This document shows, piece after piece, positions 10,581-59,548 of a DNA stretch of 59,548 bases (position 1 is its first letter; the number at the start of each line of letters is the position of its first letter). This DNA comes from Rubrobacter sp. Lineage in GTDB: Bacteria; Actinomycetota; Rubrobacteria; Rubrobacterales; Rubrobacteraceae. A model generated the notes under the pieces. That model searched no databases. It had not been told where the DNA came from and was given only the letters and a program-made list of their open reading frames with translations. Location of the stretch: NCBI GenBank assembly GCA_013695475.1, contig JACDAJ010000077.1:1-59548 (forward strand), written 5' to 3'. Position numbers and translations under genes: made by a program.

Positions 10581-12698
10581 GTGGAACAGCTCGTAGACAA
10601 TCGGTACAAAATCATCGAACCCCTCGGGAGCGGGGGGATGGCCGATGTTTTCCTCGCCCACGACAACGTTTTGGATCGCAAAGTCGCCCTCAAAGTCATG
10701 AGCGGAAGATACTCCTCCGACGACGAGTTCGTCGAACGTTTCCGAAGGGAGGCGCAGTCGGCGGCGGCTCTCGCCCACCCGAACATCGTCTCCATATACG
10801 ACCGGGGCGAGTCCGAGGACGGAACATACTATATTGCGATGGAATACCTCTCCGGCGGGACTTTGAAAGACCGGATAGTGAAACGCGGCGCGATCCCCGC
10901 GAAAACCGCCGCCGCCGTCGCCGGACAAATCGCGGAAGCCCTCAAAGTCGCCCATGACCGGGATGTCGTCCACCGCGACATAAAGCCGCACAATATCCTC
11001 ATCACCGAGGGCGGGGATATAAAAGTGACCGACTTCGGGATCGCACGCGCCGCCTCGTCGTCCACGATGACGAAGACGGGCGCGGTGATGGGGACGGCCC
11101 ACTATATATCGCCCGAGCAGGCGATGGGCGAGTCGGTCGGCTCGGCGAGCGACCTTTATTCGCTCGGCGTTCTTCTTTATGAAATGCTCACCGGGAAACT
11201 TCCGTATGACGCGGACACCCCCATCGGCATCGCGATGAAGCACGTGAACGGGCAACTTCGCCCGCCTCGGGAAGTCAATTCGAATGTTCCGGCGGGGATG
11301 AACGCGATCGTGGTGAAGCTCCTCCAGAAAGACCCGGAGAATCGGTACGCGAGCGATCAAGAATTCATAGACGATCTCGAACGCGCCTCGCGCGGCGAAT
11401 CCCCGGCGGGCGCGGCGACGACGCAAGTTATGAACCGCGCTGGAAATACGGACGGCACACAGGTCATGCCGCCCGTTCCGCCCCGGCAAACCGAAAGGAA
11501 AAAGCGGCGGGGGCTTGTGCCGCTCATTCTCCTCGGGCTGCTTCTTCTCGCGTTGCTCGGGTTCGCGGGATACAACTATTTGCAGGGAGCCTCCGAGCCG
11601 GAGGTTGCGCAAGTCAACGTGCCGGATCTCACGGGCATGACGCTCGAGGAGGCGCGGGGCGAGTATCCCGGCTTCGACATCGTGGAGGGAGGCACGGAGG
11701 ACGGGACGGACGAGGCGGGGATCGTACTCGATCAAAGCCCGAGTTCCGGCGGCGGACAGGTGGATGAGGGATCGGAGATCGAAGTCACGGTCGCGAGCGG
11801 TCAAAACGAGGTGCCAAACGTCCGGGGCGGCGCCGAGGAGAAGGCCGGGCAAGCCCTCTCCGACAAAGGCTTCGAGGTCGAGGTCGAGACGGTCGAGAGC
11901 GACGACGACGAGGTCGGAGAAGTCCTCGACCAAAACCCGTCCGGCGGCTCGACGGAGGATGTCGGCTCGACGGTCACAATATCGGTTGGCTCGGGGCCGG
12001 ACATGGTCGCCGTCCCGGATGTCCCGGTGGGATCCTCCGAAAGCCAGGCGGCTTCGCAACTCGATTCAGCCGGACTCGCGCTCGGCTCCGTCTCGACGAC
12101 GGAAAGCGTGGACGTGGCGGAGGGCGGCGTCGTGGCGCAAGACCCGCCCCCCGACACGGAGGTCGAGGAAGGCTCCTCGGTGAACATCACGCTCAGTTCG
12201 GGGCCGCCGCAGACGGAGGTTCCGGATGTCGTCGGGAGCGATGTGAACAGCGCGTCTCAAACGATGCTCGACACCCAACTCGGCTACCAGACCTTCGGCA
12301 TCCAGAGTTCGGAGGACGTGGGAACCGTCATCTCGACCGACCCCGGCGCGGGAACCACCCTCGACACGAACACCGTGGTGGCGGTCACATACAGCCTCGG
12401 CGAGCCGGAGGAGGAGCCGCCGGAGACGACGGTCGAGGACGAAACCCCGGTCACGCCAACCCAGCCGCCGCAAAACAACCAAAACAGCAACGGAAATAAC
12501 AACGAAAATAACAACGAAAATAACAACGAAAATAACAACGAAAATAACAATCAAAACAACGCGACGCCGACGCCCGGACAGACTCCGAGCGTGAACCCGT
12601 CATCACCCTCGCCGTCATCCCCTTCGAACACGGACGGGAACACTTCGGGCGGCGGCTCCGACTCGGACGACGACAACGGCGACGGCGACGATGGTTGA
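10581..12698 (+). CDS. pknB: PknB-like Ser/Thr kinase with four PASTA domains
   Basis: 705 residues. The kinase domain (about 9-270) has GSGGMADVF, Lys38, HRDIKPHN with Asp133, and DFG 151-153. A juxtamembrane linker with TQVM repeats leads to a transmembrane helix (about 311-333). Four extracellular PASTA repeats follow (about 342-612), each opening with a VPDL/VPNV/VPDV-type motif, and these bind muropeptides or lipid II. The last 90 residues are Pro/Thr/Asn/Ser/Gly-rich and include a tandem NNNE run encoded by a 12-bp DNA repeat. The kinase senses wall precursors and phosphorylates FHA partners and wall enzymes. Confidence 0.95.
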   Translation: MEQLVDNRYKIIEPLGSGGMADVFLAHDNVLDRKVALKVMSGRYSSDDEFVERFRREAQSAAALAHPNIVSIYDRGESEDGTYYIAMEYLSGGTLKDRIVKRGAIPAKTAAAVAGQIAEALKVAHDRDVVHRDIKPHNILITEGGDIKVTDFGIARAASSSTMTKTGAVMGTAHYISPEQAMGESVGSASDLYSLGVLLYEMLTGKLPYDADTPIGIAMKHVNGQLRPPREVNSNVPAGMNAIVVKLLQKDPENRYASDQEFIDDLERASRGESPAGAATTQVMNRAGNTDGTQVMPPVPPRQTERKKRRGLVPLILLGLLLLALLGFAGYNYLQGASEPEVAQVNVPDLTGMTLEEARGEYPGFDIVEGGTEDGTDEAGIVLDQSPSSGGGQVDEGSEIEVTVASGQNEVPNVRGGAEEKAGQALSDKGFEVEVETVESDDDEVGEVLDQNPSGGSTEDVGSTVTISVGSGPDMVAVPDVPVGSSESQAASQLDSAGLALGSVSTTESVDVAEGGVVAQDPPPDTEVEEGSSVNITLSSGPPQTEVPDVVGSDVNSASQTMLDTQLGYQTFGIQSSEDVGTVISTDPGAGTTLDTNTVVAVTYSLGEPEEEPPETTVEDETPVTPTQPPQNNQNSNGNNNENNNENNNENNNENNNQNNATPTPGQTPSVNPSSPSPSSPSNTDGNTSGGGSDSDDDNGDGDDG
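12489..12552 (+). repeat. Tandem 12-bp repeat inside pknB
   Basis: About five copies of AATAACAACGAA encode NNNE units in the extracellular tail. Because the unit is 12 bp, copy-number change would keep the frame and only lengthen or shorten the tail. Confidence 0.9.
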
Positions 12699-58106: not shown

Positions 58107-58177
58107 AAGCCGCGGATCGAGAAAACACGACTCGCGACTTTCTATTTGCGATGCTCGATCCGCGATTCGCGGCTTTT
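58107..58177 (+). terminator. Long stem-loop after the DnaD-DnaC module
   Basis: AAGCCGCGGATCGAG (58107-58121) is complementary to CTCGATCCGCG plus CGGCTT (58154-58175), with a five-base bulge, then TTTT. A terminator or a repeat element; the ATTCGCGGCTTTTCC part is similar to 1201-1226. Confidence 0.55.
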
Positions 58178-58252
58178 CCACTCTTGCCACATGACTCCCG
58201 ATGCGGCAAACTGACATGGAGACGTTTATTACAAAATCCCGGAGTCCGCGTC

Positions 58253-59032
58253 GTGGGCCGAAGTCCGTTTTTGAAGAGCCGCCGTTTTCACACTCCGCTT
58301 TTTGCTTTGCTCGCCGTCGTCTTTCTTTCGGCGTGCGGGGTTTTCGGCGGCGTGGCTTCCGGGGCGTATTCGCCGCCTCCGGACGCGCTCGCGGTGAGTT
58401 TTATAGACGTGGGGCAAGGGGATTCGATCCTCATTCAGGCGGGGGGCGAAAACTATCTCATCGACGCCGGGGATCCCGAAGAAGGCCCGAACGTCGTGGA
58501 TTTCCTCCGCTCCCGAGGCGTGGACGAACTCGACGGCATGGTCTCCACGAGCGGAGACTCCGACCACGCCGGAGGACTCGCCGACGTCCTCGACGCTTTC
58601 ACCGTGGAGAACATATACGTCTCCGGCTACCCGAAGGAGACGATGACGTACACGAACTTCCTTCGCGCCGCTCGGAATGAAAGGGCGGATTTTTCGGAGG
58701 TCCACGCCGGGATGGGCATGGAGTGGGGCGGGGTTCGCGTGGATGTCATAAACCCTCCGCCCGCCTCCGGCGAGGGTCTCTTCGAGAACTCGAACGACAA
58801 CTCCGTCGGGGTCATATTGACGTACGGGACGGCTCGCGTCCTTCTCGCCGGGGACACCGAGGAGAAAGCCGAGGAATACATGGCGATGGGGCCGTATACG
58901 GGGCCGCTCACGGTTATCAACGGGCGCAAGTACACACATGCGGGAAGCGCAAGTACGCTCATGCCGAAGGTTCGCTTCGGGGCGATGCTGTCTGAAGGCG
59001 GCGCCGAACGGTTAGAATTGATACGAACTTAG
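58253..59032 (+). CDS. ComEC-type metallo-beta-lactamase lipoprotein, 3' part displaced by an insertion
   Basis: Reads from GTG 58253. A lipoprotein signal (FALLAVVFLSAC) is followed by the ComEC-like MBL fold: VSFIDVGQGDSILIQ, NYLIDAG, STSGDSDHAGG (the usual first His of HPDADH is Ser) and VLLAGDTEEKAEE. The family sequence stops at GPLTV (58901-58915). A foreign 39-codon tail then runs to TAG 59032. The expected LKVGHHGSNTSTT follows only at 59487, in another frame. Without its own domain end the product is truncated unless the insert is spliced out. Confidence 0.8.
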   Translation: MGRSPFLKSRRFHTPLFALLAVVFLSACGVFGGVASGAYSPPPDALAVSFIDVGQGDSILIQAGGENYLIDAGDPEEGPNVVDFLRSRGVDELDGMVSTSGDSDHAGGLADVLDAFTVENIYVSGYPKETMTYTNFLRAARNERADFSEVHAGMGMEWGGVRVDVINPPPASGEGLFENSNDNSVGVILTYGTARVLLAGDTEEKAEEYMAMGPYTGPLTVINGRKYTHAGSASTLMPKVRFGAMLSEGGAERLELIRT

Positions 59033-59486
59033 CGAAGCTAGAAAGGAGGCGCGGCGCGGGCTTCGATCCACCAAGACATAGACCCGCGCCGCTACCTACG
59101 ATGAGTATACAGAAAGACCCGGATAAAAGAGATCTCCGGTATCTAAGACTCGTTACGCAGCGTCTTGAAGGCCGCACAGACACCGAGATAGCTAAAGGTA
59201 TGGACATCGACCCGCCGGAAGCACTCTATCAGTTACTCGCGCAAGACGGGTTTCCCATCTGCCCGGTATGCGGAGCAGCCCATGCTGGAGCCAACCACTG
59301 CGAAGAGAAGCGAAGGAGACGCCTAGATAGATGCACAGGATGATTGAACACTCCCTCGTTCATCTGCCCCAGGCTATCAGGGATGTCGAATGGCGAGTGT
59401 CCATTTATCTCGTGCATCTATCTAGCGAAGCTGCGGAGGGCTACGAGATAAGCGGAGCTGTGTGTAGTTACGAACCGTTGACCGTT
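58916..59486 (+). mobile_element. 571-bp insertion in the MBL lipoprotein gene, structured and unclassified
   Basis: Inserted between two copies of a Pro-Leu-Thr-Val codon block: CCG-CTC-ACG-GTT at 58904 and CCG-TTG-ACC-GTT at 59475, differing only at synonymous positions. It contains a perfect 10-bp GC stem (59051-59060 with 59083-59092), a perfect 14-bp stem (59323-59336 with 59412-59425), a 10-bp direct repeat TAGCGAAGCT (59030 and 59423), and an 80-codon ORF. The length 571 shifts the frame. Codon and base use (AGA, CTA, ATA) differ from flanking genes. The class (intron, MITE-like, other) is open. Confidence 0.7.
59101..59343 (+). CDS. Small zinc-ribbon/HTH-like protein inside the insertion
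   Basis: 80 residues. A helix-turn-helix-like middle (RLEGRTDTEIAKGMDIDPPEALYQLL shortened: DTEIAKGMDIDPPEALYQLL) leads to CPVCGAAHAGANHC, a four-ligand zinc knuckle candidate, then a basic end KRRRRLDRC. No good ribosome site precedes ATG 59101. It may be the only gene of the element. Family not recognised. Confidence 0.5.
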   Translation: MSIQKDPDKRDLRYLRLVTQRLEGRTDTEIAKGMDIDPPEALYQLLAQDGFPICPVCGAAHAGANHCEEKRRRRLDRCTG

Positions 59487-59548
59487 CTCAAAGTCGGGCA
59501 TCACGGCTCGAACACTTCCACGACGCCGTTGTTTCTCAGCCGCTTTCC
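59331..59548 (+). CDS. Open frame running from the insertion into the 3' part of the MBL gene (partial)
   Basis: ATG 59331 (or 59340) opens a frame that encodes about 48 element-derived residues (IEHSLVHLPQAIRDVEWR...) and then PLTVLKVGHHGSNTSTT, the C-terminal MBL motif, running off the window. It may be merely the displaced 3' exon of the gene that begins at 58253. It is not known to be translated. Confidence 0.45.
   Translation, partial: MHRMIEHSLVHLPQAIRDVEWRVSIYLVHLSSEAAEGYEISGAVCSYEPLTVLKVGHHGSNTSTTPLFLSRF

Follow-up and report, generated by a model that had tools for sequence, protein, structure and literature searches.

The window, a 59,548-nt stretch comprising Rubrobacter sp. contig JACDAJ010000077.1 (assembly GCA_013695475.1), ends within an interrupted gene for an MBL-fold lipoprotein (Table 1). 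The MBL frame (ORF 58151–59032) reads ..GPYTGPLTV up to a GTT at 58913–58915 and resumes after a second GTT at 59484–59486, giving a 3-bp common core at both edges of the insert. A search for uninterrupted homologues found the gene intact in G001, a genome of the same genus: the segments of its contig C21 that match window positions 58700–58920 and 59475–59548 (12378–12598 and 12582–12655, respectively) overlap and are contiguous, reading CCGCTCACGGTTCTCAAAG. Since this empty site is contiguous, the insert is exactly 571 bp, and the break at GPLTV with resumption 571 bp later, as described in a first-pass annotation, is borne out.

That annotation had the gene resuming in another frame, but relative to the core a single register is shared by both MBL halves, the insert's left end, and a remnant of a large serine recombinase (LSR; serine integrase) gene. 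Its description of the two PLTV copies was accurate (they differ at 3 of 12 bases), as was its view that the insert brings its own copy of the junction: the borders correspond to attachment half-sites, and the two PLTV copies are the predicted half-sites of attL and attR.

Table 1. Features of the interrupted MBL gene and its insert, in window coordinates.
Feature	Position	Strand	Basis or remark
5' half of MBL-fold (ComEC-like) lipoprotein gene, the integration target	58151–58915	+	Pfam Lactamase_B 6e-14; uninterrupted orthologue in G001
attL core GTT	58913–58915		End of MBL 5' half
Insert, 571 bp	58916–59486	+	Comparison with empty site in G001; G036, G030, G015, and G031 split at same site
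Element left end: half of predicted attP plus LSR C-terminal tail (INGRKYTHAGSASTLMPKVRFGAMLSEGGAERLELIRT, then stop), fused to MBL N-half	58916–59032	+	Tail conserved at related left ends; in frame with LSR C-terminus over the rejoined core
Leader: Shine-Dalgarno AGGAGG (59044–59049), hairpin (59051–59092, 10-bp stem), ATG (59101)	59040–59103	+	Covariance model R1
Truncated first gene of element, 80 aa, CPVCG motif	59101–59343	+	47% identity to start of 370-aa ORF in G035
103-bp hairpin repeat, CTAG at both ends, MITE-like	59323–59425		Repeat copies elsewhere in the genome, in G001, and in G028
Last 20 LSR codons up to core (EAAEGYEISGAVCSYEPLTV) plus half of predicted attP	59426–59486	+	Aligns with LSR C-termini at same MBL site in G030, G015, and G031
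MBL 3' half, start	59487–59548	+	Continues on contig C143, then ssb

Much of what the annotation had seen inside the insert proved correct: one small ORF (59101–59343), no transposase, and two perfect stems of 10 bp (59051–59060/59083–59092) and 14 bp (59323–59336/59412–59425), the latter forming the outer part of a 31-nt, 84% inverted repeat. The direct repeat TAGCGAAGCT is likewise present at 59030 and 59423, though one repeated 10-mer per ~570 bp is weak evidence, as we estimate that ~0.15 would be expected by chance. The small ORF is the truncated first gene of the element and had no Pfam match and no clear PHROG match. The 370-aa ORF in G035 carries the same leader, and homology between the two stops at ~59316, just before the hairpin repeat.

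This repeat has four other exact copies in the same genome and diverged copies in G001 and G028; contig C234 holds two in direct orientation, 4 kb apart. Copies lie on C305, C290, C234, and C174, and in G001 and G028; several of them are ~121–129 bp from contig ends, a spacing that hints at presence/absence variation. The window itself ends at a contig end: positions 59422–59548 overlap the first bases of contig C143, on which the final 99 codons of the MBL frame are followed by ssb. The break between contigs C173 and C143 falls at the CTAG that bounds the hairpin on its right, a position compatible with a second, coexisting version of the locus that either lacks the hairpin or has an intact LSR.

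Occupied and empty sites in related genomes

Insertion at this site is precise, uses a short common core, and is recurrent: the site is occupied in five genomes, including the window, and empty in others, the MBL gene being intact in most other Rubrobacteraceae genomes compared. In G030 (C83), G015 (C278), and G031 (C65), an LSR reading frame directly precedes the MBL 3' half and runs up to the same MBL codons as in the window, so that the LSR gene adjoins the attachment site where the window has only its last 20 codons; the G030 frame is interrupted, and the G015 and G031 genes are cut on their 5' sides by contig ends. Their C-termini read DGYEVTGPFCTSEPLSS (G030), GGYQVSGAFCVREPLSS (G015), and EGYHVSGIFCTSER.. 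(G031), versus EGYEISGAVCSYEPLTV in the window. In G036, ~5.6 kb of decayed DNA splits the MBL gene at the same position, with a left end homologous to that of the window copy (ATCAGCGTTCAAAACTACAAAA vs ATCAACGGGCGCAAGTACACACA). G015 contig C105 reads across the empty site at its end and shares a 39-bp overlap with C278, which carries the LSR junction; therefore, both occupied and empty forms are present in the G015 assembly. A contig start in G018 was considered as an occupied site and rejected, as it reads through the empty site.

The identification of these genes as LSRs is based on domain matches of two sequences: a relative on G015 contig C309 (Pfam Resolvase 2.5e-29, Recombinase 2.2e-8, and Zn_ribbon_recom 2.5e-11; PHROG integrase 1e-77) and the G030 copy (Zn_ribbon_recom 1e-5). 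The C309 element was left out as a fourth paired element because its left flank mismatches the rest of the host VOC gene, indicating that its two ends do not belong together. Rubrobacteraceae genomes are rich in LSR genes; among plasmid and phage records, only distant LSRs were found (<60% identity), and searches of viral contigs returned neither the leader nor an LSR relative.

A second integration site lies in the same MBL gene, ~50 codons upstream (DVI/APPP; L099, L100, L101, and L103). It is used in G003 and apparently also in G030 and G031; in neither of the latter two was the middle stretch of the MBL gene, which separates the sites, found. Related elements of ~7–9 kb (L144 and L148) encode an AAA ATPase with an NrS-1 polymerase HBD domain and resemble small integrative plasmids or phage satellites.

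Origin of the insert

Very probably, the 571-bp insert is an internally deleted relic of an LSR integrative element that recombined, attP with attB, inside the MBL gene. The window copy lacks an intact, autonomous LSR, of which only 59426–59486 is left, and is therefore classed as a relic; no intact LSR with a window-like ending was found in the same genome. Because homology to the first gene gives out where the hairpin begins and homology to the LSR picks up where it ends, the body of the element appears to have been deleted at the hairpin, for which recombination between two copies of the repeat would offer a simple route.

Alternatively, the 571-bp unit could be a streamlined non-autonomous element still mobilized in trans by a related LSR. 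Preservation of both half-sites and the core speaks for such a unit, as do the abundance of LSR genes in the family and the assembly branch inside the insert, where the window and C143 share exactly 127 bp from the hairpin edge. We nevertheless regard mobilization in trans as unlikely: a search for further copies found this genome to have just the one insert and no sister of 571 bp elsewhere, and truncation of the first gene as well as the LSR at the hairpin edges looks like the outcome of an accidental deletion. The hairpin-ended mobile element of the first-pass annotation was right about a real insertion with a hairpin inside it but not about the ends: the hairpin is a separate, dispersed 103-bp repeat found elsewhere without the insert. 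The suggestion of a new class was too strong for what is a relic of a serine-integrase element.

A self-splicing group I or II intron in the MBL gene, also put forward in that annotation, would account for the structured interior, the weak P1-like pairing, and the uninterrupted gene in relatives, yet it deserves almost no credence. A covariance search matched no Rfam intron family, even at E 5, and the 5-bp pairing found no support; furthermore, the ends of the insert match the ends of LSR elements in other genomes, relatives have LSR genes that end at this site, and the interior resolves into the start of a gene, a dispersed hairpin, and the 3' end of an LSR. An assembly chimera at the contig end is only slightly less improbable: although the insert lies <650 bp from where the contig ends and a repeated hairpin sits at the break, independent genomes have LSR elements at the same gene position, and the junction is precise, with half-sites in frame. 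An integron-cassette reading of the GTT core was dropped because LSR genes sit at the site.

The leader of the first gene

The first gene of the integrative elements is preceded by a recurrent leader (59040–59103 in the window; L155–L178) consisting of a Shine-Dalgarno sequence, a GC-rich hairpin, and ATG, followed by AGTNTA. A covariance model (R1) built from 12 leader copies found 24 loci in 17 of 37 Rubrobacteraceae genomes and no locus in 24 genomes that belong to other families in the phylum, with the order of Shine-Dalgarno sequence, hairpin, and start codon conserved across the 24 loci. Over 25 sequences the stem is 96% paired, with compensatory change at two pairs and a variable loop; the window leader has a z of -3.2. 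A sequence scan of named genomes gave ten matches, seven of them in Rubrobacter or Rubrobacteraceae MAGs and one in an actinobacterial MAG; the remaining two, in Nannocystis and a deltaproteobacterial MAG, are sequence matches only. The leader is absent from Rfam and had no match in IMG/VR.

Of the 51 nt that separate AGGAGG from ATG, 42 lie in the hairpin, so that folding shortens this distance to 9 nt and may help translation. The leader is a candidate regulatory RNA. Among the leader copies (loop at 59061–59082 in the window; L155–L178), many have a loop, CCGCTCC, whose pairing with the Shine-Dalgarno region would give a possible alternative fold; in the window copy this sequence is changed. 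Phage T4 genes 25 and 38 have split ribosome-binding sites, with gene 25 spacing reduced from 27 to 11 nt (PMC3014915), and as in gene 25, a hairpin between the Shine-Dalgarno sequence and the start codon shortens the effective spacing here. Unlike the T4 examples, to which it is unrelated in sequence, this leader has a larger, GC-rich stem, precedes the first gene of integrative elements, and recurs at 24 loci within a single bacterial family.

Elements bearing the leader carry either an LSR or a tyrosine integrase, the latter replacing the LSR beside the same leader at L147, L179, L181, and L184. The first-gene module therefore appears to have been exchanged between integrase types.

The attachment site and the integrase C-terminus

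When the ends of the window copy are rejoined over the core, the LSR and the tail form one open frame (..GYEISGAVCSYEPLTV-INGRKYTHAGSASTLMPKVRFGAMLSEGGAERLELIRT, then stop). The same holds for the element in nth of G026, which has an 11-bp core AACGACATCTG (..DYVPTERHL-PLGSQVQNLSSLQFYALLAGDGAERLELARA, then stop), and for G003 at the second MBL site, with a 10-bp core CACGCGGATG (..LKHTRM-RESENTQPLGLRFRALLTEGEPDLRIERALG, then stop) and its two ends on different contigs. A frame through attP that is truncated on integration is thus seen in three rejoined junctions (window, G026, and G003); the frame check on G030 and G036 combines two genomes. Because the tail is out of the host frame in G026 and G003, it is part of the LSR and not of the interrupted gene. 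FRALLxEGGAERLEL is common to the tail copies at other left ends, and the differences among these copies by codon position (146/79/205 at positions 1/2/3) fit a protein-coding tail. Dyad symmetry of attP was dropped as independent proof, the ungapped test on the rejoined site being not significant (p 0.67); a 14-nt, 86% inverted repeat lies near the ends.

Judged from these junctions, the predicted attP lies within the LSR coding sequence, and integration is predicted to truncate the enzyme. In the parent family, attP would sit ~30–40 codons before the LSR stop, so that the LSR encoded by the free circle would be a long form with the end ..FRALLxEGGAERLELARA, then stop; searches for a contig with this long form found none. 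Recombination of attP with attB, presumably by the LSR itself, would remove the tail from the enzyme and leave it at attL, the opposite end of the element, while host sequence at attR would give the LSR a new C-terminus, with an immediate stop at several sites. A TGA directly follows the core in G015, G030, and G003, a host-supplied stop not present in the window. The element in nth (L143, 1940 and 9322) restores a recoded C-terminus of the host protein, with NDICPSAHKYKT in place of NDICPSADL, which recalls the recoded PLTV of the first-pass annotation.

Several tails end in ELARA, EWARA, ELAIA, or ELAEA, and the tmRNA tags of Rubrobacteraceae (ANDNGELALAA, ANDREMALAA, ANDRELVAA, and GNDMELQAA) end in ELALAA, EMALAA, ELVAA, or ELQAA. 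These ssrA-like tails suggest a candidate integration-dependent switch, though the tails of the window, G036, G003, and G030 end differently and a degron is for this reason only a suggestion. A serine integrase clade with attP in its own gene, in which integration strips a conserved degron-like tail and so switches the integrase itself, is a tentative proposal that may well prove wrong. If it is true, the integrase could be unstable or differently active in the circle, with its activity or stability changed once integrated, and editing of its own C-terminus would give integration a built-in directionality or dosage switch. Serine integrases are workhorses of genome engineering, and the basis of their one-way reaction is of wide interest.

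The window feature is a decayed copy; the unusual part is the parent family, with its predicted attachment site inside a serine integrase gene. We found no report of attP inside such a gene in the literature searched, which was open-access and mostly excludes subscription papers. Serine-integrase elements inserted in protein genes include phage A118 in Listeria comK (PMC3556126) and serine-integrase prophages of M. abscessus (PMC8092301). The elements described here are like these in having an LSR beside the attachment site, a short core, and an attB within an ORF that is disrupted, and differ in that the window copy is a relic and the predicted attP of the family lies inside the LSR coding sequence.

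The integrase of Myxococcus phage Mx8 is a tyrosine recombinase. According to PMC6070905, citing Tojo 1996 and Magrini 1999, the Mx8 attP lies within int, and integration gives the integrase gene a new 3' end, which is reported to modify the specificity of the enzyme. The Rubrobacteraceae elements would likewise give their integrase gene a new 3' end on integration but, unlike Mx8, are small elements with a serine recombinase and a conserved tail. Integration-dependent immunity in mycobacteriophage BPs and its relatives similarly involves an attP in a coding gene, where integration removes a C-terminal tail of 20–35 residues with an ssrA-like end and the host supplies the stop (PMC4557955, PMC9262239, PMC8092301). 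Tail removal, host stop, and attP in a coding gene all have counterparts here, and the ends of several tails may be a counterpart of the ssrA-like end; however, in BPs it is the repressor gene that is split, and the integrase belongs to the tyrosine type, whereas here the split gene would be that of the serine integrase itself.
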